From Staphylococcus sp. NRL 16/872 (GTDB lineage Bacteria > Bacillota > Bacilli > Staphylococcales > Staphylococcaceae): 64,000 nucleotides of DNA. Below the pieces are notes generated by a model, which worked only from the letters and a program-made list of their open reading frames with translations, was not told the origin of the DNA and made no database searches. Below are positions 28,875 through 44,299 of the stretch, piece after piece. Where the stretch lies: positions 434,001 through 498,000 of the forward strand of contig NZ_CP119327.1 of NCBI RefSeq assembly GCF_022815905.2, written 5' to 3'. The position numbers and the translations under genes are program-made. The stretch's first letter is position 1; every line of letters starts with the position of its first letter.

Positions 28875-29483
28875 ATGAAGAATTGGACAAGCCATTTGAT
28901 GACTATTATAGGTATCATCTTAATTCTAGTGGCAGCATATTTATTTGCCAAACCACATATAGACAATTATCTACATGAAAAAGATAATGATAATAAAATT
29001 GAGCAATATGATAACAATGATAAAAAAGAAGCAACCCAAAAAGAAACGCCGACTATTCCTAAAGATAAATCAAAAATGGCAGGTTACATAACTATTCCAG
29101 ATGCAGAAATTAAAGAACCAGTCTATCCTGGACCAGCAACGCCAGAACAATTAAATCGTGGCGTAAGTTTTGCGGAAGAAAATGAAAAATTAGACGATCA
29201 AAATATTTCAATAGCTGGCCACACCTTTATTGATCGTCCACATTATCAATTCACTAACTTAAAAGCTGCTAAAAAAGGAAGCAAAGTCTACTTTAAAGTG
29301 GGTAATGAAACGCGTAAGTATAAAATGACAAGTATCCGTGACGTGAACCCAGATGAAGTCAAAGTCTTAGATGAACATAAAGGTGAAACCAATCAATTAA
29401 CATTAATCACTTGCGATGACTATAACGAACAAACAGGCATATGGGAAAAACGTAAAATCTTCGTAGCAAAACAAATTAACTAA
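28875..29483 (+). CDS. srtA: Sortase A
   Basis: 202 residues, very like S. aureus SrtA (206) over its whole length as I remember it. The N-terminal membrane helix spans about residues 8-26, followed by a charged linker and the sortase barrel. The catalytic His is in SIAGHTFIDRP near residue 116, the Cys in TLITCDDYNEQTG near residue 180, and the Arg in WEKRKIF near residue 193. It cleaves LPXTG signals between Thr and Gly and links the protein to lipid II. AAAGGAG precedes the ATG. A terminator follows, so it is not co-transcribed with the giant LPXTG gene that begins 190 bases later. Confidence 0.97.
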   Translation: MKNWTSHLMTIIGIILILVAAYLFAKPHIDNYLHEKDNDNKIEQYDNNDKKEATQKETPTIPKDKSKMAGYITIPDAEIKEPVYPGPATPEQLNRGVSFAEENEKLDDQNISIAGHTFIDRPHYQFTNLKAAKKGSKVYFKVGNETRKYKMTSIRDVNPDEVKVLDEHKGETNQLTLITCDDYNEQTGIWEKRKIFVAKQIN

Positions 29484-29625: not shown

Positions 29626-29671
29626 TAAATGAGATTTACCATTCAGAATTTACACCAAGGAAGTGACATCA

Positions 29672-32600
29672 TTGAAAGAAAAATCTAACAATAAAATAGG
29701 TCCGTTTCTAAATAGACATAATAATTATTCTATTAGAAAATTTACTATTGGTACGGCTTCGATTCTCGTAGGGACTACTTTAATTTTTGGTTTGAGTAAT
29801 GAAGCGCAAGCCCAAAGTAATGATGGAAGTAAACAAGCTATTGAACAATCCTCTGATGAACAAGCGATTGCACCACCTCAGACAAACGAATCCCAAAATA
29901 ACACGGAAGTTAAAAAAATTGAACAAAAACCAAACGTAGATGAAGAATCAGTCAATGCATCTTCTACTACAAAAGAAACCCAAGATAATAAAGTAGATAA
30001 AACAAAAATAAATGATAATAACGAAGTTTCGGATGAACATAAAGAAGTTGAAAAATCTGATAATTCTAAAAAAGAAGATGTTAAAGTAGAAAAAGTTGAT
30101 AATAAAGAGAAAGTTAAACAAGAAGAAAGTAAAGATTCTTCAAATTCAACAAAAGAAACTAAAAAAGATTTACACTATCAAGACAATACTAGAGAAAGAG
30201 CAGCTAGTTTAGAAGCAACTTATCCTAGTGGCGACGTAGAAGTAGATACTTCGGCTATTCCAGAAGCACCACAAGAGTTTATAACTCAATACAACAAATC
30301 TACTAATCGTGAAAAATTGATACATGATTTACTAACTGATTCATATGATGAAGCAGATGTTGCAGAAATACTAAAACGTGTAAATATCAATCTTAATAAT
30401 ACAACTGCACAAGAAGCATTTAAAGCAATTATGTCAGCAGGAATTAAATATGCGAATGAACAAACATCTCGTTACAGCGTCTATGCCGTAACTCCAAGTA
30501 GTTCAAATAAAATAAACAACCAAAATGTTAATTCAGTAGCTGATTTAAAAAGAATAGTTGGCGTTAACCCACAAAATGGTCTAACTATTACAGGTAGAGG
30601 TCATACAGCAGTAGATCAAGCCCCGGTTAATTATACTTTACATGCACAACCTAATCGCCGAAATAATACTATGGATTTCACTGTAACGTGGAAAGTCGAT
30701 CCTTCAGCATCCGAACATGCTCATATGGCAGAATTAGCAGGATTTAATTTCGGTTCTGGATATAATGTCCCTAGTACTATAACTGGTTCTTACACTACAA
30801 CTGGTGGACGCACTATATCAAATAATATGAATATGGTTACACAAGGACGCTTTAATTACCCTAAAGGCTATGTATTTACTTCAAGACTTCAAATAACAAG
30901 ACTATTCGTAAATAATGGTGGACGTATTGAGTATCGATTTAGCCTTCCGGTTCGAAATTGGAATGGAGACTTAGGTTTCAATGGATATGTTGACATGTTT
31001 ACTGATGGAGAGGAAAATCCTACTTCTCAATTTAATCCTTCATCTTTCCAAAATTATTTTTATGAGGAAGGTAAAGTACAAGGTGATGGAAATGTCGATG
31101 CTCATATAGTCTCAACTGATGATGCTTCGGATGTACAAGTAGTACCATTCCAAACTGAATATGTAGTATCTAAAGATGTACCGGTTGGTCAACAAGTCGT
31201 TCAAAGAGAAGGACGAAATGGTAAACACGGCACATTATATACTTCTGTAAGTTATAATAATCAATTTATAGGTCGATTTGTCAAACAAACTTATGATGAA
31301 GCCCCTGTAAATAGAATTGTAGCTATCGGTGTGGGTGCAGTTAATGATTCCAACCTTAGTGGACCATTAGCACCAATTATTGAACCACAATTATCTGGTG
31401 CTAATACTGTTAGTGGTGAAACAAGTCCCAATGCACAATTAGCTATTTATGTAGCAGGTAGAGAATATCATACTACAGCTGATAGCAATGGACGTTTCAA
31501 CTTGAATTTGCCAAATTATTCTTTACAAGAAGGTGATCGCATTTCAGCTATTGCGACACTAGATGGTAAAAAAAGTAGCCCAGGTAAAACAATTGTCCCT
31601 AGAGATGGTAGAACACCTAACCTTAATACTAATGTTCAACGTGGTGTAGATAATAATAGAAAACCAGGAAGCTGGGTAACGATTACTAATGCGACTACTG
31701 GTCAACAAATTAGCCGTTTCTTTGTGCCAGATGGTTTACCGGGTCAAGATGGTCGTTCAATAACAATAACTGATGAACACTTAGATCCATCTACTGGAGA
31801 ACGCGTCATTATATTTAGCGATGGTAGAACTATACGTATTCCTAAAGGCGAAAAAGGCGACAAGGGTGATAAAGGTGATCGTGGTCAAACTGGTGCAACA
31901 GGAGCTCGTGGTCCACAAGGAGCAGCAGGCCACTCAATTACAATTACTAGTACGACTGTAGATTCAGACGGTAATACTATCGTACATTTCAGTGATCGTA
32001 CTACGCTTAAAATACCTAAAGGACCTAAAGGCGATAAAGGCGATCGCGGTCAAACTGGAGCACGAGGACCACAAGGCCCTGCAGGTCAATCAATAACAAT
32101 TACAAACATATCTAAAGATAATGATGGAAATACTACTGTTGAATTTAGTGATCATTCTTCAATGATCATTCCAGCTGGTGTTCGAGGTCAAGATGGTACA
32201 TCAATTGGTATCAAAACGATTTCAACACAAACTAATGGAGATACAGTCGTAACCTTTACAGATGGTAAGACTATGACAATTCCAAAAGGTGCAAAAGGGG
32301 ATAAAGGTGATCGTGGACAAGCTGGTGCACGTGGAGCTGATGGTCATTCAATTACTATTACTAGTAATACCGTAGAAGCAAATGGTGACCGTAGAATTGT
32401 ATTTTCTGATCATACTACTCTAGTTATTCCTAAAGGAGATAAGGGTGATAAAGGGGACAATGGAACATCTATTGGTATAACAAATATTGATACTGATTCA
32501 GCAGGAAATAAAGTTGTTCATTTTACAGATGGAAAAATAATGATAGTACCAAAAGGCGACAATGGTACTTCAATAGGAATTCAAACTATCATTCCACAAA

Positions 32601-35600
32601 CAAGTGGAGACATAGTCGTAACCTTTACAGATGGAAAAACAATGACAATACCTAAGGGCGCTAAAGGTGATCGAGGCGATAATGGTACATCAATAGGTAT
32701 CACTAGAATCGAAACAGATAGAGCAGGAAATAAAGTAGTCCATTTTTCAGATGGTAAAACAATGACAATCCCTAAAGGTCATGATGGAACATCAATTGGT
32801 ATACGTTCAATTACATCTCAAGAGAATGGGGATACAATCGTAACCTTTACAGACGGTAAAACAATGACAATACCTAAAGGAGCTAAAGGTGATCGTGGTG
32901 AAGATGGTGCAAACGGTCAATCAATTACTATTATTAGTAATATAGTAGAGCCAAATGGAGATCGTAAAATTGTTTTCTCAGATAATACGTGCTTAATCAT
33001 ACCTAAGGGTGACAAAGGTGATAAAGGTGATAAAGGCGACAATGGAACATCTATTGGTATAACAAACATTGAGATTGATGTGACAGGCAATCAAGTTGTT
33101 CATTTTACAGATGGAAAAACAATGATAGTTCCTAAAGGAGATAAGGGTGACAAAGGTGACAATGGAACATCAATAGGAATTCAAACAATTACATCACATT
33201 TTAATGGAGATACAGTTGTAACCTTTACAGACGGTAAGACAATGATAATTCCTAAGGGAGCTAAAGGTGACAAAGGTGATAAAGGTGAAGTTGGAGCACG
33301 TGGTGCAGACGGACATTCTATCACTATTATAAGTAGAACCATCGAACCAAATGGAGATCGTAAAATTGTTTTCTCAGATAATACATGTTTAATCATACCT
33401 AAGGGTGATAAAGGTGATCGAGGTGACAATGGAACTTCAATAAGTATTACGACTATTGATACTGATACAACAGGCAATAAAGTAGTTCATTTCAGCGATG
33501 GAAAAACAATGATAGTTCCAAAAGGCCAAGATGGCACATCTATTGGCATTCAAACAACAACAAAATCATCAAATGGAGATACCATAATTACATTTACCAA
33601 TGGAAAAACAATCACAATTCCGAAAGGTGACAAAGGTGATCGAGGTGATAATGGAACTTCAATTGGTATAACAAATATTGAAACGAATACTTCCGGTGAT
33701 AAAGTTGTTCATTTTACAGATGGAAAAACAATGATTGTACCAAAAGGCCAAGATGGCACATCGATTGGTATACGAACAATCACACCACAAGCCAATGGGG
33801 ATACAGTCGTAATCTTTACAGATGGCAAGACAATGACGATTCGTAAGGGTGATAAAGGTGACCGAGGTGAAGTCGGGGCACGAGGCGCAGATGGTCACTC
33901 AATTACAATCACAAGTAATACCGTTACATCAAATGGCGACCGCAGAATTGTGTTCTCAGATAATACATCGGTTATTATTCCGAAAGGCGATAAAGGTGAT
34001 AAAGGTGACCGAGGCGACAACGGTACATCAATTGGTATCCAAACAATCACACCACAAGCCAATGGAGATACAGTCGTAATCTTTACAGATGGCAAGACAA
34101 TGACGATTCATAAAGGTGATAAAGGTGATCGAGGAGAAGTTGGAGCACGAGGTGCAGATGGTCACTCAATTACAATCACAAGTAATACCGTTACATCAAA
34201 TGGTGATCGTAGAATTGTGTTCTCAGATAATACATCGGTTATTATTCCGAAAGGTGATAAAGGTGATAAAGGTGACCGAGGTGACAATGGTACCTCAGTT
34301 GGTATAACAAATATTGAAACTGATATTTCGGGAAATAAAATTGTTCACTTTACAGATGGTAAAGCAATGACGATTCCAAAAGGCCAAGATGGTATATCGA
34401 TTGGTATTCTTTCTATTAAATCACAAGAAAATGGAGACACAGTTGTAACCTTTACAGATGGAAAAACAATGACAATACCAAAAGGAGCAAAAGGTGATCG
34501 AGGAGAAGTTGGAGCACGAGGTGCAGATGGTCATTCAATTACAATCACAAGTAATATAGTAAAATCTAACGGCGACCGTAAAATTACTTTTTCTGATAAT
34601 ACATCTATTATTATTCCTAAAGGTGATAAAGGTGACCGAGGCGATAATGGTACTTCTATCAGTATTACCCAAATTGAAACTGCTACGAATGGTAATAAAA
34701 TTGTTCATTTTAGTGATGGTAAAGTTATGGAAATTCCTAAAGGTGAACGTGGAGAAACAGGCCATGATGGAACATCAATTACTATTACGAATATAAGCAC
34801 TGATGAATCTGATAATACGATTGTTCATTTCAGTGACGGTAAATCTATCAGTATTCCTAAAGGTCAAGAAGGACGTTCTATTGGTATTCAAAATATAAGT
34901 AAAAATGCGCAAGGCGACACAGTTGTAACCTTTACAGATGGTAAATCAATCACTATACCAAAAGGTGAACGTGGAGAAAAAGGTCAGGACGGACAAAATG
35001 GTCACGATGGTAAATCAATCGTAATTACCGATACACATATAGATGAAGTAGGAAATACAATAATTACATTTAATGACGGTAGAAGCATCACAATACCGAA
35101 AGGCCAAGATGGTCATTCAATTGAAATTCAATCAGTTGATAGAAATCAACAAGGTGATACAGTTATTGTATTTACAAATGGAAAATCAGTGACCATTCCT
35201 AAAGGCGACCGTGGAGAAAAAGGTCATGATGGAATTTCTATAAGTATTACAAGTACAGAAACTGATAGCTCAGGTAATACAATAGTTCATTTTAGTGATG
35301 GTAGAAGTATAACAATACCTAAAGGTCATGATGGTCAGTCAGTCGGCATTAAAACAACTACAACATTACCAAGTGGCGATACTTTAGTGACATTTACAGA
35401 TGGTAAGTCGATTACAATACCGAAAGGAGAAAAAGGACAAGACGGCCATTCAATAACTATTTTAAGTAATACAGTTGAACAAAATGGTGATCGAAAAGTT
35501 ACTTTCTCTGATAATACATCTATCATTATTCCTAAAGGAGACAAAGGTGACCGAGGAGAAAATGGCCGAGATGGTCAATCAATCGTAATAACAGATTCAC

Positions 35601-38600
35601 ATGTAGATAGCGTAGGCAACACAGTGATTACGTTCAACGATGGACGTTCAATTACATTACCAAAAGGTCAAGACGGTTACTCAATTGGCATTCAAACTAC
35701 AACAAAATCACCAAATGGAGATACAGTGATCACATTTACAGATGGTAAAACAATCACAATACCAAAAGGTGAAAAAGGTGAAAACGGACGAGACGGTCAA
35801 AATGGCACGTCGATTACAATTACAACAACAGGCACAGATAGTGCAGGTAACACTGTAATTACATTTAGCGATGGCAAAACAGTAACTGTACCAAAAGGCC
35901 AAGATGGCCACTCAATCGGTATCCAAGCCATCACACAAAATACGGCTGGTGATACAGTAGTAACATTCACCGATGGTAAGTCAATGACAATACCAAAAGG
36001 TAGAGATGGCCAAAACGGTAGAGATGGTCAATCAATCGTAGTCACAAATACCCATACCGACGGTTCAGGTAATACAGTGATTACGTTCAATGATGGACGT
36101 TCAATTACATTACCAAAAGGTCAAGATGGTCACTCAGTCGGTATCCAAGCCATCACACAAAATACAGCTGGCGATACAATAGTGACATTTACCGATGGTA
36201 AGTCAATGACAATACCAAAAGGTCGAGATGGCCAAAATGGACGTGATGGCCAATCAATCGTAATCACAAATACCCATACAGATGGTTCAGGTAATACAGT
36301 GATTACGTTCAACGACGGACGTTCAATAACATTACCGAAAGGTCAAGATGGTCACTCAATTGGTATTCAAACAACATCGAAATCTCCAAACGGAGATATA
36401 GTGGTTAGATTTACAGATGGTAAAACAATCACAATACCGAAAGGTGATAGAGGTGAAAACGGTCGAGACGGTCAAAATGGCACATCGATTACAATTACAA
36501 CAACAGGCACAGATAGTGCAGGAAATACTGTCATTACATTTAGTGATGGCAAAACAGTAACTGTACCAAAAGGCCAAGATGGCCACTCAATTGGTATCCA
36601 AGCCATCACACAAAATACGGCTGGCGATACCGTAGTGACATTTACCGACGGTAAGTCAATGACAATACCAAAAGGTAGAGATGGCCAAAACGGTAGAGAT
36701 GGTCAATCAATCGTAATCACAGATACCCATACAGATGGCTCAGGTAACACAGTAATCACGTTCAATGATGGACGCTCAATAACATTACCGAAAGGTCAAG
36801 ACGGTCAATCAATTGGTATTCAAACAACAGCGAAATCACCAAATGGAGATACCGTGATTACATTTACGGATGGTAAAACAATCACAATACCGAAAGGTGA
36901 CAAAGGTGACCGAGGAGAAAATGGTCGAGATGGCCAAAATGGTACATCGATTACAATTACAACTACAAGCACAGATAGTGCAGGAAATACTGTCATTACA
37001 TTTAGCGATGGCAAAACAGTAACTGTACCAAAAGGTCAAGATGGCCACTCAATTGGTATCCAAGCCATCACACAAAATACGGCTGGTGATACAGTAGTAA
37101 CATTCACCGACGGTAAGTCAATGACAATACCAAAAGGTAGAGATGGCCAAAACGGACATGACGGCCAAAATGGTCGAGATGGTCAATCAATTGTAATCAC
37201 AAATACTCATATCGACGGTTCAGGTAATACAGTGATTACGTTCAATGATGGACGTTCAATAACATTACCGAAAGGTCAAGACGGTCAATCAATTGGCATT
37301 CAAACAACAGCGAAATCACCAAACGGCGATACAGTGATCACATTTACAGATGGTAAAACAATCACAATACCGAAAGGTGATAGAGGTGAAAACGGCCGAG
37401 ACGGTCAAAATGGCACATCGATTACAATTACAACTACAGGCACAGATAGTGCAGGAAATACTGTCATTACATTTAGCGATGGTAAAACAGTAACCGTGCC
37501 AAAAGGTCAAGATGGCCACTCAGTCGGTATCCAAGCCATCACACAAAATACAGCTGGCGATACAATAGTGACATTTACCGATGGTAAGTCAATGACAATA
37601 CCAAAAGGTCGAGATGGCCAAAACGGTAGAGATGGTCAATCAATCGTAATCACAAATACCCATACAGACAGTTCAGGTAATACAGTGATTACGTTCAACG
37701 ACGGACGTTCAATAACATTACCGAAAGGTCAAGATGGTCACTCAATTGGTATTCAAACAACAACAAAATCATCAAATGGAGATACCGTGATCACATTTAC
37801 AGATGGTAAAACAATCACAATACCGAAAGGTGACAAAGGTGACCGAGGAGAAAATGGCCGAGACGGTCAAAATGGCACATCGATTACAATTACAACAACA
37901 GGCACAGATAGTGCAGGTAATACTATCATTACATTTAGTGATGGCAAAACAGTAACCGTGCCAAAAGGTCAAGATGGTCAATCAATCGGTATCCAAACCA
38001 TCACACAAAATACAGCTGGTGATACAGTAGTAACATTCACCGATGGTAAGTCAATGACAATACCAAAAGGTCGAGATGGCCAAAACGGTAGAGATGGTCA
38101 ATCAATCGTAATCACAGATACCCATACAGACGGTTCAGGTAATACAGTGATTACGTTCAACGACGGACATACAATAACCTTACCGAAAGGTCAAGATGGT
38201 CACTCAATTGGTATTCAAACAACATCGAAATCACCAAACGGAGATACAGTGGTTACATTTACAGATGGTAAAACAATCACAATACCAAAAGGTGAAAAAG
38301 GTGAAAACGGCACATCGATTACGATTACAACTACAAGCACAGATAGTGCAGGTAATACTGTCATTACATTTAGCGATGGTAAAACAGTAACCGTGCCAAA
38401 AGGTCAAGATGGCCACTCAATTGGTATCCAAGCCATCACACAAAATACAGCTGGCGATACAGTAGTAACATTTACCGATGGTAAGTCAATGACAATACCA
38501 AAAGGTAGAGATGGCCAAAACGGTAGAGATGGTCGATCAATCGTAATCACAAATACCCATACCGACGGTTCAGGTAATACAGTGATTACGTTCAATGATG

Positions 38601-41600
38601 GACGTTCAATTACATTACCAAAAGGTCAAGATGGTCACTCAATTGGTATTCAAACAACAGCGAAATCACCAAACGGAGATACCGTGATTACATTTACAGA
38701 TGGTAAAACAATCACAATACCGAAAGGTGACCGAGGAGAAAATGGCCGAGACGGTCAAAATGGCACATCGATTACAATTACAACAACAGGCACAGATAGT
38801 GCAGGTAACACTGTAATTACATTTAGCGATGGCAAAACAGTAACTGTACCAAAAGGTCAAGATGGCCACTCAATTGGTATCCAAGCCATCACACAAAATA
38901 CGGCTGGTGATACAGTAGTAACATTCACCGACGGTAAGTCAATGACAATACCAAAAGGTAGAGATGGCCAAAACGGACATGACGGCCAAAATGGTCGAGA
39001 TGGTCAATCAATTGTAATCACAAATACTCATATCGACGGTTCAGGTAATACAGTGATTACGTTCAATGATGGACGTTCAATAACATTACCGAAAGGTCAA
39101 GACGGTCAATCAATTGGCATTCAAACAACAGCGAAATCACCAAACGGCGATACAGTGATCACATTTACAGATGGTAAAACAATCACAATACCGAAAGGTG
39201 ATAGAGGTGACCGAGGAGAAAATGGTCGAGATGGCCAAAATGGTACATCGATTACAATTACAACTACAAGCACAGATAATGCAGGAAATACTGTCATTAC
39301 ATTTAGCGATGGCAAAACAGTAACTGTACCAAAAGGTCAAGACGGTCACTCAGTCGGTATCCAAGCCATCACACAAAATACAGCTGGCGATACAATAGTG
39401 ACATTTACCGATGGTAAGTCAATGACAATACCAAAAGGTCGAGATGGCCAAAATGGACGTGATGGCCAATCAATCGTAATCACAAATACCCATACAGATG
39501 GTTCAGGTAATACAGTGATTACGTTCAACGACGGACGTTCAATAACATTACCGAAAGGTCAAGATGGTCACTCAATTGGTATTCAAACAACATCGAAATC
39601 TCCAAACGGAGATATAGTGGTTAGATTTACAGATGGTAAAACAATCACAATACCGAAAGGTGATAGAGGTGAAAACGGTCGAGACGGTCAAAATGGCACA
39701 TCGATTACAATTACAACAACAGGCACAGATAGTGCAGGAAATACTGTCATTACATTTAGTGATGGCAAAACAGTAACTGTACCAAAAGGCCAAGATGGCC
39801 ACTCAATTGGTATCCAAGCCATCACACAAAATACGGCTGGCGATACCGTAGTGACATTTACCGACGGTAAGTCAATGACAATACCAAAAGGTAGAGATGG
39901 CCAAAACGGTCGAGATGGTCAATCAATCGTAATCACAGATACCCATATCGACGGTTCAGGTAACACAGTAATCACGTTCAATGATGGACGCTCAATAACA
40001 TTACCGAAAGGTCAAGACGGTCAATCAATTGGTATTCAAACAACAGCGAAATCACCAAATGGAGATACCGTGATTACATTTACGGATGGTAAAACAATCA
40101 CAATACCGAAAGGTGACAAAGGTGACCGAGGAGAAAATGGTCGAGATGGCCAAAATGGTACATCGATTACAATTACAACTACAAGCACAGATAGTGCAGG
40201 AAATACTGTCATTACATTTAGCGATGGCAAAACAGTAACTGTACCAAAAGGTCAAGATGGCCACTCAATTGGTATCCAAGCTATCACACAAAATGCGGCT
40301 GGCGATACAGTAGTAACATTTACCGATGGTAAGTCAATGACAATACCAAAAGGTAGAGATGGCCAAAATGGACGAGATGGTCAATCAATCGTAATCACAG
40401 ATACCCATACAGACAGTTCAGGTAATACAGTGATTACGTTCAACGACGGACGTTCAATAACATTACCGAAAGGTCAAGATGGTCACTCAATTGGTATTCA
40501 AACAACATCGAAATCACCAAACGGAGATACAGTGATCACATTTACAGATGGTAAAACAATCACAATACCGAAAGGTGACCGAGGAGAAAATGGTCGAGAT
40601 GGCCAAAATGGTACATCGATTACAATTACAACAACAGGCACAGATAGTGCAGGAAATACTGTCATTACATTTAGTGATGGCAAAACAGTAACCGTACCAA
40701 AAGGTCAAGATGGCCACTCAGTTGGTATCCAAGCCATCACACAAAATACAGCTGGCGATACCGTAGTGACATTTACCGATGGTAAGTCAATGACAATACC
40801 AAAAGGTAGAGATGGCCAAAACGGTAGAGATGGTCAATCAATCGTAATCACAAATACCCATACAGACGGTTCAGGTAATACAGTGATTACGTTCAATGAC
40901 GGACGTTCAATTACATTACCAAAAGGTCAAGATGGCCACTCAATTGGTATCCAAGCCATCACACAAAATACGGCTGGCGATACCGTAGTGACATTTACCG
41001 ACGGTAAGTCAATGACAATACCAAAAGGTAGAGATGGCCAAAACGGCCGAGACGGCCAAAATGGTCGAGATGGTCAATCAATTGTAATCACAAATACTCA
41101 TACCGACGGTTCAGGTAATACAGTGATTACGTTCAATGATGGACGCTCAATAACATTACCGAAAGGTCAAGACGGTCAATCAATTGGCATTCAAACAACA
41201 TCGAAATCACCAAACGGCGATACAGTGATCACATTTACAGATGGTAAAACAATCACAATACCGAAAGGTGATAGAGGTGAAAACGGCCGAGACGGTCAAA
41301 ATGGCACATCGATTACAATTACAACTACAGGCACAGATAGTGCAGGAAATACTGTCATTACATTTAGCGATGGCAAAACAGTAACTGTACCAAAAGGTCA
41401 AGATGGCCACTCAATTGGTATCCAAGCCATCACACAAAATGCGGCTGGCGATACAGTAGTAACATTTACCGATGGTAAGTCAATGACAATACCAAAAGGT
41501 AGAGATGGCCAAAACGGTAGAGATGGTCAATCAATCGTAATCACAAATACCCATACCGACGGTTCAGGTAATACAGTGATTACGTTCAATGACGGACGTT

Positions 41601-44299
41601 CAATTACATTACCAAAAGGTCAAGATGGTCACTCAATTGGTATTCAAACAACATCGAAATCACCAAGTGGAGATACAGTGATCACATTTACAGATGGTAA
41701 GTCAATGACAATACCGAAAGGTGAAAAAGGTGAAAATGGCACATCGATTACAATTACAACAACAGGCACAGATAGTGCAGGTAACACTGTCATTACATTT
41801 AGCGATGGCAAAACAGTAACTGTACCAAAAGGTCAAGATGGTCACTCAATTGGTATCCAAGCCATCACACAAAATACGGCTGGCGATACCGTAGTGACAT
41901 TTACCGACGGTAAGTCAATGACAATACCAAAAGGTAGAGATGGCCAAAACGGCCGAGACGGCCAAAATGGTCGAGATGGTCAATCAATTGTAATCACAAA
42001 TACTCATACCGACGGTTCAGGTAATACAGTGATTACGTTCAATGATGGACGCTCAATAACATTACCGAAAGGTCAAGACGGTCAATCAATTGGCATTCAA
42101 ACAACATCGAAATCACCAAACGGCGATACAGTGATCACATTCACCGACGGTAAAACAATCACAATACCAAAAGGTCAAGATGGCCAAAATGGCCGAGACG
42201 GTCAAAACGGTAGAGATGGTCAATCAATTGTGATCACAAATACACATACAGACGACGCAGGCAACACAGTGATTACGTTCAACGACGGACGTTCAATTAC
42301 CTTACCGAAAGGTCAAGATGGTTACTCAATTGGTATTCAAACAACATCGAAATCACCAAACGGAGATACAGTGATTACATTTACAGATGGTAAAACAATC
42401 ACAATACCGAAAGGTGATAAAGGTGAAGATGGACGAAATGGCACATCGATTACAATTACAACAACAGGTACAGATAGTGCAGGAAATACTGTCATTACAT
42501 TTAGTGATGGCAAAACAGTAACCGTACCAAAAGGTAAAGATGGCCACTCAATCGGTATCCAAGCCATCACACAAAATGCGAACGGCGATACAGTAGTAAC
42601 ATTCACCGATGGTAAGTCAATGACAATACCAAAAGGTAAAGATGGCCAAGATGGACGAGATGGCCAATCAATTGTAATCACAAATACTCATACTGACGGC
42701 GCGGGTAATACAGTGATTATGTTCAATAACGGACGTACAATAACATTACCGAAAGGTCAAGACGGTCATTCAATTGGCATTCAAACAACAGCGAAATTAC
42801 CAAATGGAGATACTGTAATCACATTTACGGATGGTAAAACAATCACAATACCGAAAGGTGAAAATGGTCAATCCATAACTATTACTAGTCAAAGAATAAC
42901 TTCGAGTGGCGATACAATAATTGTATTTTCAGACGGTCATTCTGTAACGATACCAAGAGGTCAAGATGGTCATTCTGTAACTATTAAAGAAACTCATAAA
43001 GATAAAGATGGCAATACCGTTGTAGTATTTAGTTATGGAAATAATATTACAATTGAAAAAGGTCGCGATGGACGAGACGGACGTGATGGTCGAGACGGTC
43101 GCGATGGCAGAGATGGCCAAAACGGCTATAACGGATACAACGGCCAAAATGGAAATAATGGCTATAATGGTCAAAATGGTAACAATGTTTATAACGGTAC
43201 TACAGTAAAAATTATTGGCCAAAGAATTACAAAAGAAGGAAATACAATCATTGAATTTAGTGACGGTAACTCTGTAACAATACCAAGAGGTCAAGATGGT
43301 CATTCAGTTACTATAAAAGAGACATATAAAGATCAAAATGGTAATTCAGTTGTAGTATTTAGTGATGGACATAAAATTACAGTTGAAAATGGTCGAGATG
43401 GCCAAAATGGTAGCTCAATTACAATTGTCGGTCAAAGAATTACAAAAGAAGGAAATACAGTCATCGAATTTAGTGATGGACATTCAGTGACAATACCAAA
43501 AGGCCAAGATGGCCACTCTGTTATTACTAAAGAAACATATAAAGATCAAAACGGTAATACAGTTATTGTCTTTAGTGATAATAAAAAATTAATCGTTGAA
43601 GGATCATCTTCAGCACCAAAATATAATCCAACTACTGTACCAAATGTAGTAACTAATTACTATATTGATAACCATGGAAATACTATTATATTGTTAGCAG
43701 ATGGTAGACAATTATGCGTGCCATGTTTAAATGGTAAAGCATCTACAATTCAATATTATTATCTTGATAATGATGGCAATATTCATATTGATTTAACTAA
43801 TCATCCAAGTATTGTAATACCAAGACAACCAATTGCACCACATCACATGGATTATAAATATTACAATCACCGTGAATTCGGTCATCATAACGATTTTAAT
43901 TATGATCATTCTAAATACCATACTCCATATGGTTATGAGCAACATAGATATAATAATGGACATGAATACTATGAAGTTAATAATCAACATAGTTTCAATA
44001 ATTACGCACATAACCATCAAGAACATAACGGATTTAATTATGATAGAGACATAAATCAACATGGTCATTCTCAACAACATGATCAATATACTAAATCTAA
44101 TTATCGTTCTCATGTTAACTACCATGGACATGGTTACACTATGACTGAAGCTATGAAACAATATAGAACAGTAGTAGCAAGAAAATATGCATTACCTAAT
44201 ACAGGTGAGTCAGGATCATTATCATTAAGTTATTTAATGGCACTTATTGGAAGCATGTTATTACTTGGTGGTTATAAAAAAAGACAACAAACTAAATAA
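29672..44299 (+). CDS. Giant collagen-like LPXTG cell-wall protein with about 100 beta-module/Gly-X-Y repeats
   Basis: About 4,875 residues from TTG 29672 (AAGGAAGTGA 6 bases upstream; the in-frame GTG at 29663 lies in that site). Order: YSIRK-type signal (YSIRKFTIGTASILVG, residues about 20-50, ending NEAQAQ); a Glu/Lys/Asn-rich disordered stretch to about 175; an adhesin-like beta-rich head to about 480; one G5-like domain about 487-551; one Ig-like domain about 571-645; the repeat region about 690-4642; two degenerate modules; a His/Tyr/Asn-rich tail about 4717-4835; LPNTG at 4841, a membrane helix and KKRQQTK. Export, anchoring by SrtA and a surface role are secure by motif. Adhesion, biofilm or spacing functions are inference. 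The frame is open throughout. I cannot name the 31-residue module family. Confidence 0.95.
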   Translation: MKEKSNNKIGPFLNRHNNYSIRKFTIGTASILVGTTLIFGLSNEAQAQSNDGSKQAIEQSSDEQAIAPPQTNESQNNTEVKKIEQKPNVDEESVNASSTTKETQDNKVDKTKINDNNEVSDEHKEVEKSDNSKKEDVKVEKVDNKEKVKQEESKDSSNSTKETKKDLHYQDNTRERAASLEATYPSGDVEVDTSAIPEAPQEFITQYNKSTNREKLIHDLLTDSYDEADVAEILKRVNINLNNTTAQEAFKAIMSAGIKYANEQTSRYSVYAVTPSSSNKINNQNVNSVADLKRIVGVNPQNGLTITGRGHTAVDQAPVNYTLHAQPNRRNNTMDFTVTWKVDPSASEHAHMAELAGFNFGSGYNVPSTITGSYTTTGGRTISNNMNMVTQGRFNYPKGYVFTSRLQITRLFVNNGGRIEYRFSLPVRNWNGDLGFNGYVDMFTDGEENPTSQFNPSSFQNYFYEEGKVQGDGNVDAHIVSTDDASDVQVVPFQTEYVVSKDVPVGQQVVQREGRNGKHGTLYTSVSYNNQFIGRFVKQTYDEAPVNRIVAIGVGAVNDSNLSGPLAPIIEPQLSGANTVSGETSPNAQLAIYVAGREYHTTADSNGRFNLNLPNYSLQEGDRISAIATLDGKKSSPGKTIVPRDGRTPNLNTNVQRGVDNNRKPGSWVTITNATTGQQISRFFVPDGLPGQDGRSITITDEHLDPSTGERVIIFSDGRTIRIPKGEKGDKGDKGDRGQTGATGARGPQGAAGHSITITSTTVDSDGNTIVHFSDRTTLKIPKGPKGDKGDRGQTGARGPQGPAGQSITITNISKDNDGNTTVEFSDHSSMIIPAGVRGQDGTSIGIKTISTQTNGDTVVTFTDGKTMTIPKGAKGDKGDRGQAGARGADGHSITITSNTVEANGDRRIVFSDHTTLVIPKGDKGDKGDNGTSIGITNIDTDSAGNKVVHFTDGKIMIVPKGDNGTSIGIQTIIPQTSGDIVVTFTDGKTMTIPKGAKGDRGDNGTSIGITRIETDRAGNKVVHFSDGKTMTIPKGHDGTSIGIRSITSQENGDTIVTFTDGKTMTIPKGAKGDRGEDGANGQSITIISNIVEPNGDRKIVFSDNTCLIIPKGDKGDKGDKGDNGTSIGITNIEIDVTGNQVVHFTDGKTMIVPKGDKGDKGDNGTSIGIQTITSHFNGDTVVTFTDGKTMIIPKGAKGDKGDKGEVGARGADGHSITIISRTIEPNGDRKIVFSDNTCLIIPKGDKGDRGDNGTSISITTIDTDTTGNKVVHFSDGKTMIVPKGQDGTSIGIQTTTKSSNGDTIITFTNGKTITIPKGDKGDRGDNGTSIGITNIETNTSGDKVVHFTDGKTMIVPKGQDGTSIGIRTITPQANGDTVVIFTDGKTMTIRKGDKGDRGEVGARGADGHSITITSNTVTSNGDRRIVFSDNTSVIIPKGDKGDKGDRGDNGTSIGIQTITPQANGDTVVIFTDGKTMTIHKGDKGDRGEVGARGADGHSITITSNTVTSNGDRRIVFSDNTSVIIPKGDKGDKGDRGDNGTSVGITNIETDISGNKIVHFTDGKAMTIPKGQDGISIGILSIKSQENGDTVVTFTDGKTMTIPKGAKGDRGEVGARGADGHSITITSNIVKSNGDRKITFSDNTSIIIPKGDKGDRGDNGTSISITQIETATNGNKIVHFSDGKVMEIPKGERGETGHDGTSITITNISTDESDNTIVHFSDGKSISIPKGQEGRSIGIQNISKNAQGDTVVTFTDGKSITIPKGERGEKGQDGQNGHDGKSIVITDTHIDEVGNTIITFNDGRSITIPKGQDGHSIEIQSVDRNQQGDTVIVFTNGKSVTIPKGDRGEKGHDGISISITSTETDSSGNTIVHFSDGRSITIPKGHDGQSVGIKTTTTLPSGDTLVTFTDGKSITIPKGEKGQDGHSITILSNTVEQNGDRKVTFSDNTSIIIPKGDKGDRGENGRDGQSIVITDSHVDSVGNTVITFNDGRSITLPKGQDGYSIGIQTTTKSPNGDTVITFTDGKTITIPKGEKGENGRDGQNGTSITITTTGTDSAGNTVITFSDGKTVTVPKGQDGHSIGIQAITQNTAGDTVVTFTDGKSMTIPKGRDGQNGRDGQSIVVTNTHTDGSGNTVITFNDGRSITLPKGQDGHSVGIQAITQNTAGDTIVTFTDGKSMTIPKGRDGQNGRDGQSIVITNTHTDGSGNTVITFNDGRSITLPKGQDGHSIGIQTTSKSPNGDIVVRFTDGKTITIPKGDRGENGRDGQNGTSITITTTGTDSAGNTVITFSDGKTVTVPKGQDGHSIGIQAITQNTAGDTVVTFTDGKSMTIPKGRDGQNGRDGQSIVITDTHTDGSGNTVITFNDGRSITLPKGQDGQSIGIQTTAKSPNGDTVITFTDGKTITIPKGDKGDRGENGRDGQNGTSITITTTSTDSAGNTVITFSDGKTVTVPKGQDGHSIGIQAITQNTAGDTVVTFTDGKSMTIPKGRDGQNGHDGQNGRDGQSIVITNTHIDGSGNTVITFNDGRSITLPKGQDGQSIGIQTTAKSPNGDTVITFTDGKTITIPKGDRGENGRDGQNGTSITITTTGTDSAGNTVITFSDGKTVTVPKGQDGHSVGIQAITQNTAGDTIVTFTDGKSMTIPKGRDGQNGRDGQSIVITNTHTDSSGNTVITFNDGRSITLPKGQDGHSIGIQTTTKSSNGDTVITFTDGKTITIPKGDKGDRGENGRDGQNGTSITITTTGTDSAGNTIITFSDGKTVTVPKGQDGQSIGIQTITQNTAGDTVVTFTDGKSMTIPKGRDGQNGRDGQSIVITDTHTDGSGNTVITFNDGHTITLPKGQDGHSIGIQTTSKSPNGDTVVTFTDGKTITIPKGEKGENGTSITITTTSTDSAGNTVITFSDGKTVTVPKGQDGHSIGIQAITQNTAGDTVVTFTDGKSMTIPKGRDGQNGRDGRSIVITNTHTDGSGNTVITFNDGRSITLPKGQDGHSIGIQTTAKSPNGDTVITFTDGKTITIPKGDRGENGRDGQNGTSITITTTGTDSAGNTVITFSDGKTVTVPKGQDGHSIGIQAITQNTAGDTVVTFTDGKSMTIPKGRDGQNGHDGQNGRDGQSIVITNTHIDGSGNTVITFNDGRSITLPKGQDGQSIGIQTTAKSPNGDTVITFTDGKTITIPKGDRGDRGENGRDGQNGTSITITTTSTDNAGNTVITFSDGKTVTVPKGQDGHSVGIQAITQNTAGDTIVTFTDGKSMTIPKGRDGQNGRDGQSIVITNTHTDGSGNTVITFNDGRSITLPKGQDGHSIGIQTTSKSPNGDIVVRFTDGKTITIPKGDRGENGRDGQNGTSITITTTGTDSAGNTVITFSDGKTVTVPKGQDGHSIGIQAITQNTAGDTVVTFTDGKSMTIPKGRDGQNGRDGQSIVITDTHIDGSGNTVITFNDGRSITLPKGQDGQSIGIQTTAKSPNGDTVITFTDGKTITIPKGDKGDRGENGRDGQNGTSITITTTSTDSAGNTVITFSDGKTVTVPKGQDGHSIGIQAITQNAAGDTVVTFTDGKSMTIPKGRDGQNGRDGQSIVITDTHTDSSGNTVITFNDGRSITLPKGQDGHSIGIQTTSKSPNGDTVITFTDGKTITIPKGDRGENGRDGQNGTSITITTTGTDSAGNTVITFSDGKTVTVPKGQDGHSVGIQAITQNTAGDTVVTFTDGKSMTIPKGRDGQNGRDGQSIVITNTHTDGSGNTVITFNDGRSITLPKGQDGHSIGIQAITQNTAGDTVVTFTDGKSMTIPKGRDGQNGRDGQNGRDGQSIVITNTHTDGSGNTVITFNDGRSITLPKGQDGQSIGIQTTSKSPNGDTVITFTDGKTITIPKGDRGENGRDGQNGTSITITTTGTDSAGNTVITFSDGKTVTVPKGQDGHSIGIQAITQNAAGDTVVTFTDGKSMTIPKGRDGQNGRDGQSIVITNTHTDGSGNTVITFNDGRSITLPKGQDGHSIGIQTTSKSPSGDTVITFTDGKSMTIPKGEKGENGTSITITTTGTDSAGNTVITFSDGKTVTVPKGQDGHSIGIQAITQNTAGDTVVTFTDGKSMTIPKGRDGQNGRDGQNGRDGQSIVITNTHTDGSGNTVITFNDGRSITLPKGQDGQSIGIQTTSKSPNGDTVITFTDGKTITIPKGQDGQNGRDGQNGRDGQSIVITNTHTDDAGNTVITFNDGRSITLPKGQDGYSIGIQTTSKSPNGDTVITFTDGKTITIPKGDKGEDGRNGTSITITTTGTDSAGNTVITFSDGKTVTVPKGKDGHSIGIQAITQNANGDTVVTFTDGKSMTIPKGKDGQDGRDGQSIVITNTHTDGAGNTVIMFNNGRTITLPKGQDGHSIGIQTTAKLPNGDTVITFTDGKTITIPKGENGQSITITSQRITSSGDTIIVFSDGHSVTIPRGQDGHSVTIKETHKDKDGNTVVVFSYGNNITIEKGRDGRDGRDGRDGRDGRDGQNGYNGYNGQNGNNGYNGQNGNNVYNGTTVKIIGQRITKEGNTIIEFSDGNSVTIPRGQDGHSVTIKETYKDQNGNSVVVFSDGHKITVENGRDGQNGSSITIVGQRITKEGNTVIEFSDGHSVTIPKGQDGHSVITKETYKDQNGNTVIVFSDNKKLIVEGSSSAPKYNPTTVPNVVTNYYIDNHGNTIILLADGRQLCVPCLNGKASTIQYYYLDNDGNIHIDLTNHPSIVIPRQPIAPHHMDYKYYNHREFGHHNDFNYDHSKYHTPYGYEQHRYNNGHEYYEVNNQHSFNNYAHNHQEHNGFNYDRDINQHGHSQQHDQYTKSNYRSHVNYHGHGYTMTEAMKQYRTVVARKYALPNTGESGSLSLSYLMALIGSMLLLGGYKKRQQTK
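31741..43600 (+). repeat. Intragenic modular repeats: 31-residue beta module plus collagen-like Gly-X-Y tract, about 101 copies
   Basis: By hand count about 101 modules follow the pattern x-S-I-x-I-(8-9x)-G-[DN]-T-V-[IV]-x-F-[ST]-D-G-K-(3x)-[IV]-P-K-G. Nearly all are exactly 31 residues; the first has 32. Each is followed by 1 to about 9 Gly-X-Y triplets (15 at 43066-43198). Linker length changes in steps of three residues. N-terminal linkers are GDK/GDR/GAR-rich; later ones are GQD, GRD and GQN. From about 35.5 kb a four-module super-unit of about 453-471 bases dominates. The copies are diverged synonymously but include nearly identical long blocks. Confidence 0.93.

Follow-up and report, generated by a model that had tools for sequence, protein, structure and literature searches.

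The 64,000-nucleotide stretch of Staphylococcus sp. NRL 16/872 analyzed here (contig NZ_CP119327.1, positions 434,001 to 498,000; hereafter the window) carries a giant surface protein gene directly downstream of the sortase gene srtA. An uninterrupted open reading frame occupies 29663..44299 on the forward strand, the other five frames across the same stretch holding 206 to 533 stops each, and the likelier start is the TTG at 29672, 8 nucleotides (nt) downstream of AAGGAAG, a putative ribosome-binding site picked out by eye. The encoded protein has a YSIRK signal and a low-complexity region, followed by the head (amino acids [aa] 199-644) and the stalk (aa 696-4645); a degenerate cap and a segment rich in His, Tyr and Asn then lead to an LPNTG sorting signal (Table 1). 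The named family to which SlsE of S. lugdunensis belongs gains here a new member of great length, whose kind of design already has a Pfam name from other proteins.

Table 1. Features of the giant gene and its upstream neighbor, in window coordinates; cut-offs in parentheses
Feature	Position	Strand	Basis
srtA, directly upstream of the giant gene	28875..29483	+	TIGR01076 151.8 bits (39.35)
SlsE-like giant surface protein gene, 4,875 codons, TTG start	29672..44299	+	Open reading frame listing, translation, homology and synteny with SlsE
YSIRK-type signal peptide region (aa 19-48)	29726..29815	+	PF04650 38.6 bits (20), TIGR01168 43.5 bits
Conserved N-terminal helical head part (aa 199-265)	30266..30466	+	Alignment; helices in predicted model
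Adhesin domain (aa 299-472), MSCRAMM-type fold, nearest the PsrP keratin-10-binding domain	30566..31087	+	
G5 domain (aa 489-553)	31136..31330	+	PF07501 34.6 bits (23); SasG and Aap G5 by profile, best E 5.2e-15
Bacterial Ig-like domain (aa 563-644)	31358..31603	+	
Stalk, about 101 modules of 30 residues with Gly-X-Y linkers between (aa 696-4645, about 3,950 residues)	31757..43606	+	Module profiles
Homogenized stalk part: 453-nt unit, four modules (two pairs), 14.7 copies	36111..42861	+	Tandem Repeats Finder
Longest collagen-like tract, 15 triplets (aa 4465-4510), with the one Val at a Gly position	43064..43201	+	Linker counts
C-terminal cap: two degenerate modules with Cys-X-X-Cys (aa 4657-4719)	43640..43828	+	Broader profile, sequence
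His/Tyr/Asn-rich segment before the anchor, taken as wall-spanning	43847..44176	+	Sequence
LPNTG sorting signal, hydrophobic stretch, positive tail	44192..44296	+	TIGR01167 21.1 bits (15.9)

The stalk follows a strict length rule. A profile built from the modules found 102 of them in the window, 100 at full length, and a broader profile found 103, including two degenerate copies at the C-terminal end. Among the 100 full-length modules, 99 measure 30 residues and one measures 31, and all 99 linkers between them have a length of 1 mod 3; if the residue preceding each module is counted with it, giving a 31-residue unit, the linkers are all whole triplets. Each linker in the window holds 1-7, 9 or, once, 15 complete triplets, with Gly at 271 of 272 triplet positions and a Val, in the longest tract, as the single exception. 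Gly thus recurs at every third residue, as in collagen-like sequence, and PF01391 matches at 67.5 bits (cut-off 27.2). These figures bear out much of a first-pass annotation of this DNA: its single 14.6 kb frame of ~4,875 residues (from the TTG at 29672 to the stop at 44299), its ~101 module copies and its alternation over ~3,950 residues all hold, and so do its YSIRK signal, adhesin-like head and LPNTG anchor. Its 31-residue module is the same unit with the preceding residue included, although 99 of 100 copies are 30 residues long, and its range of 1-9 triplets covers all linkers except the one with 15. In counts that lean towards the rule, because linkers longer than 75 residues or with gap letters were excluded, the phase of each linker was set to maximize Gly and the same proteins served to refit the profile, 15 family proteins keep the length rule in 731 of 741 linkers and have Gly at 2,866 of 2,939 triplet positions. 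Ala accounts for 56 of the 73 exceptions, most of those listed lying at module boundaries.

Codon usage in the linkers indicates that the Gly positions are held in place. Codons were compared, position by position, between window linkers of the same length, in pairs that are not independent; the Val-bearing linker has no partner of equal length and stands outside the comparison. At Gly positions, 1,661 of 3,567 comparisons differ and every difference is synonymous, whereas 5,823 comparisons at X and Y positions gave 2,641 non-synonymous and 688 synonymous differences. Before aa 2000, where the array is divergent, Gly codons differ in 154 of 280 comparisons, all synonymously, beside 232 non-synonymous and 82 synonymous differences among 478 comparisons at X and Y. 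Purely synonymous differences at Gly next to freely changing X and Y positions point, at the level of sequence, to a constraint on Gly itself in the stalk linkers. Linker length alone is weaker evidence than this Gly invariance, because slippage of 9-nt units would also favor triplet steps.

The modules show an equally regular pattern. In 456 distinct 30-residue modules from 15 proteins, each a full-length match to the first profile, positions 2, 4, 17, 19 and 27 are always hydrophobic and position 25 is hydrophobic in 98%, as against 50% for position 16, 31% for position 7 and at most 25% for the remainder. An AlphaFold model of a single chain of eight modules has three strands per module in separate sheets, the linkers between them being of low confidence (mostly below 50 in predicted local distance difference test, pLDDT) and packing between modules not evident. 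The six hydrophobic positions fall two per predicted strand. The predicted module would be a three-stranded meander with one hydrophobic face of six residues, a face that seems insufficient to stabilize a single domain. Structure prediction had been proposed with the first-pass annotation; the monomer model of separate three-stranded sheets neither supports nor refutes a trimer, since single chains alone were modeled.

A collagen triple helix requires three chains. Gly that stays fixed while its codons drift, modules seemingly dependent on partners and the presence of the module in phage tail proteins (see below) together suggest that three chains are aligned throughout. We think it rather probable that the protein works as an adhesin, anchored by sortase and carried on a segmented stalk of great length, and that three of its chains together form a segmented rod. 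In the mechanism we propose, three chains would associate along the stalk, each 30-residue module would form one three-stranded sheet with one hydrophobic face, and three such sheets would pack around an axis. The Gly-X-Y linkers would wind as short triple helices whose register is held by the flanking modules, and the longest triplet tract, together with the Cys-bearing cap near the wall, may be the site where the chains first align. The rod would hold three copies of the MSCRAMM-type head away from the cell, and the array would change in length by duplication of 453-nt units. The linkers sum to 915 residues, or 262 nm at 0.286 nm per residue, and with the modules included the rod could reach several hundred nanometers. 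A more specific model, to which we give an even chance, is that of a homotrimeric segmented collagen: some 100 three-stranded modules, each a trimer, would act as registration clamps, triple helices that are unstable by themselves, most with one to seven triplets, would become a rod of several hundred nanometers, and unit-wise changes in length would keep the register. That the modules trimerize and nucleate short triple helices was already suggested in the first-pass annotation, and it is the best-supported reading, through the triplet register, the synonymous Gly codons, the one-faced hydrophobic pattern and the module in phage tail proteins.

Several observations weigh against a trimeric rod with an adhesive head. 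A trimer was neither predicted nor observed, the prediction being of single chains, and the stalk model is of low confidence (mean pLDDT 63.7, predicted template modeling score 0.24). The solved structures searched include none matching the module. One Gly position in the window is Val, 43 of the 99 linkers have a single complete triplet and are too short alone for a triple helix, and the triplet steps in linker length could also come from slippage of 9-nt units. In the head, the adhesin domain lacks the basic character of that of PsrP. Finally, FibU, the collagen-like upper fiber of phage 80alpha, was expected to be trimeric, but density was found for only 12 copies, six pairs (PMC7048315; published work is cited here and below from the excerpts available). 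Our P0019 alignments to FibU cover no module copy, as judged by eye.

The same observations can be read in terms of single chains. Modules could be small independent sheets strung like beads, with the Gly-X-Y linkers as extended, polyproline-II-like spacers that form no triple helix. The separate sheets and low-confidence linkers of the single-chain model are consistent with this idea, as are the many linkers with one complete triplet, and long monomeric stalks do exist in staphylococci, as in SasG (PMC4458895). However, a string of monomeric beads explains neither why Gly codons change synonymously only, beside free change at X and Y, nor the one-sided hydrophobic face, and we consider it unlikely.

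A second arrangement within one chain comes from the spacing of the modules. From about aa 1990 to 4330, linkers of 4 residues alternate with linkers of 7-16, which indicates that the modules of this part come in pairs. The two modules of a short-linked pair could lie face to face as a six-stranded sandwich, the longer Gly-X-Y linkers being spacers, and the hydrophobic faces would then be covered. Yet strict pairs are lacking in the first third of the array, the S. caledonicus protein (L026) has four-residue linkers in 2 of 22 counted, AlphaFold did not pack the pairs, and the invariance of Gly is left unexplained, which makes intrachain pairing a doubtful proposition, with low odds in our view. 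Foldseek returned many beta-propellers and the CPAP G-box (TCP10) sheet among the best matches of the eight-module model (best E 1.3e-6 and 1.3e-5), and phmmer gave weak matches to WD-40 designs (E 2e-4 and above); they would suit several modules of one chain closing into a ring or ribbon, as propeller blades or one continuous open sheet, an outcome we hold to be very improbable.

Modules four apart are 88% identical in DNA in the homogenized part of the stalk and 58% identical in the first part. Together with the unit repeats (Table 1), this identity suggests that the array grows and is homogenized by whole units, and such growth in 453-nt steps is what the repeat pattern appears to record. 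SlsE of S. lugdunensis ranges from 2,818 to 4,166 aa among 21 strains and carries a frameshift in all CC1 strains but HKU09-01 (PMC6834553). This variation, and the homogenization of most of the last two thirds of our array, might suggest a mostly neutral repeat expansion by slippage of 9-nt and 453-nt units under little structural constraint, but the divergent first part keeps the register, with its differing Gly codons all synonymous, and 4,875 codons run without a stop, so that we attach hardly any probability to it.

The adhesin domain of the head has the fold of the PsrP-type keratin-10-binding domain (3zgh, 3zgi), from which it differs in sequence (22% identity) and in having no net basic charge. 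It counts 13 Lys plus Arg and 14 Asp plus Glu residues and is neutral overall, the isoelectric points of 14 family members ranging from 4.9 to 9.2. Any ligand ascribed to the window's head by its likeness to PsrP is therefore putative. A second place in the genome (G000:C1:2366924-2367033, L038) is 75% identical to the signal-peptide DNA and probably belongs to another YSIRK surface protein gene.

Near the wall, the cap holds two of the four Cys residues of the whole protein. At least one Cys lies in or near the cap in 11 of 12 family proteins compared, the protein of L023 being without, and the cap cysteines may possibly form an interchain bridge. The segment between cap and sorting signal varies by lineage: it is rich in His, Tyr and Asn in the window, L023 and L026, consists of Ser-Asp repeats in S. 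microti and S. rostri (L027, L028) and is Pro-rich in L029-L034 and L036, while L035 ends upstream of it. The Pfam anchor model (PF00746, Gram_pos_anchor) reaches 15.7 bits in the window protein, under its cut-off of 20.

The architecture had seemed, on first inspection, unlike any described staphylococcal surface protein, a claim that does not stand. SlsE was described in 2011 (Heilbronner et al.; PMC3615170): its 3,459 residues include a G5 motif, stretches of collagen-like sequence and a 31-residue motif repeated 46 times. LPETG is the motif listed for it (PMC7763024). We take a locus of S. lugdunensis as slsE, because it matches this description and ends in LPETG. The window head is 62-63% identical to it, and both places have srtA upstream and genes for a HAD hydrolase and D-lactate dehydrogenase downstream. 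The window protein shares with SlsE a homologous head with G5, ~31-residue repeats with collagen-like sequence and the same chromosomal place; given the same neighbors and the LPETG of the S. lugdunensis locus, the window gene is taken, on sequence and synteny, as the SlsE orthologue and a very long one. The two differ in that the window has ~101 modules against the 46 published for SlsE and LPNTG in place of LPETG, and the S. lugdunensis protein also has other, longer repeats between its collagen tracts (L039 11855-13276, by eye). In the excerpts available of the open-licence literature searched, we found no description of an SlsE trimer or of a 30-residue module plus whole triplets as a rule, and no functional study of SlsE among the papers naming it with S. 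lugdunensis.

When 84 Staphylococcus genomes were searched with the head, 31 matched. Full head relatives are present in 15 of these, the genome of the window among them; the remaining matches are weak and partial, mainly to the Ig-like domain. In the regions of the head relatives, open frames range from 925 to 4,875 aa and encode 2 to 102 modules apiece, joined by Gly-X-Y linkers; contig ends or gaps cut some of them short. The module profile matched in 20 of the 84 genomes, that is, in five without the head. Relatives occur in S. lugdunensis, S. devriesei, S. caledonicus, S. microti, S. rostri, S. simulans and S. carnosus and in Nosocomiicoccus ampullae, with a distant one in Aerococcus. These results tie SlsE to a family, present in 15 of the 84 genomes, whose head has a defined fold and whose stalk obeys a rule of 30-residue modules plus whole triplets.

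The chromosomal site is variably occupied. The giant gene sits between srtA, the only sortase gene found in its genome (one PF04203 match) and present in 84 of 84 genomes, and the HAD hydrolase gene. Among the best 30 of the 84 srtA loci (L067-L096; reverse-strand gaps worked out by hand), five have the giant gene, 14 have an empty site, where the HAD gene follows srtA at 176-384 nt, and in 11 the HAD gene was not seen within the fetched flank. Three genomes whose SrtA is 95-96% identical to that of the window have an empty site and no head match, and the gain or loss of the giant gene is therefore probably recent. In S. microti and S. simulans the fetched flanks are unlike the window's neighbors, which places the gene elsewhere there.

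Outside cell-wall proteins, the module occurs in phages. At E 1e-3 it was found in 40 of 50,697 phage records (34 staphylococcal, 4 corynebacterial and 2 unnamed), and several of the proteins bearing it are annotated as tail proteins. Phages vB_ScoM-YCP and Zion have two 30-residue modules each, adjoining Gly-X-Y tracts. In the 'terminal repeat-encoded protein' of the Staphylococcus cohnii phage vB_ScoM-YCP (L049 3767-5137), two modules are followed by what looks by eye like a pectate-lyase-type tailspike sequence. The window protein matches phrog_29134 (tail) at 1296.4 bits over 72 stretches and phrog_28074 (unknown function) at 2036.5 bits over 48, both whole-protein sums. Judged as sequence matches, they show shared modules and do not make the window protein a tail protein: the phage proteins have two modules against about 100 in the window and are without a wall anchor. 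Phage tail proteins are commonly trimeric. For E. coli prophage collagen-like proteins, trimers with trimerizing domains were shown experimentally (PMC3368898). The shared module links wall-anchored adhesins with phage tail proteins.

DUF4988 (PF16378) reaches 499.1 bits over the whole protein (cut-off 30), its best stretch covering 33 of 183 model positions and a single module scoring 17.2. The MiiA motif (NF053582; 247.6 bits over the whole protein, cut-off 24, best single motif 21.7) was set aside as repeat-inflated, and the NCBIfam models of the streptococcal collagen-like proteins stay below their cut-offs (SclB 202.3, cut-off 325; SclA 36.7, cut-off 400). Pfam's collagen-flanked surface repeat (CFSR, PF19079), known from Aerococcus, Dolosigranulum and Nosocomiicoccus proteins, has no match in the window protein at E 0.1 and none in the genome; control genomes were also without a match, though the same library did match CFSR in other proteins. 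Among the head relatives, the Nosocomiicoccus protein (45% identity) has one CFSR stretch and the Aerococcus protein (29%) ten. When ten Aerococcus repeats, chosen by eye, were compared with the module as profiles, the probability was 0.8% and no relation was found. The N. ampullae protein (P0122) has the same head, behind which come Gly-X-Y tracts and repeats of other types, with one match to CFSR, which suggests that the head keeps a collagen-flanked stalk while the type of repeat differs.

If the trimer is real, the window protein would be a natural, proline-poor segmented collagen with built-in trimerizing units, which biomaterials research and the biophysics of collagen could use. It would also give coagulase-negative staphylococci a testable adhesin; as a homotrimeric segmented collagen, it would represent a general bacterial route to very long collagens. 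Among known systems, PsrP offers the nearest adhesin domain, and no serine-rich repeat region like that of PsrP was seen in the window protein. Scl1/SclA and Scl2/SclB are, like the window protein, wall-anchored and built with Gly-X-Y, and form one long unbroken helix. The CFSR proteins come closer in design, being likewise surface proteins in which Gly-X-Y tracts alternate with short repeats. For the module itself, a comparable design is the T4 fibritin foldon, a 27-residue trimerizing hairpin domain used for nucleating collagen.
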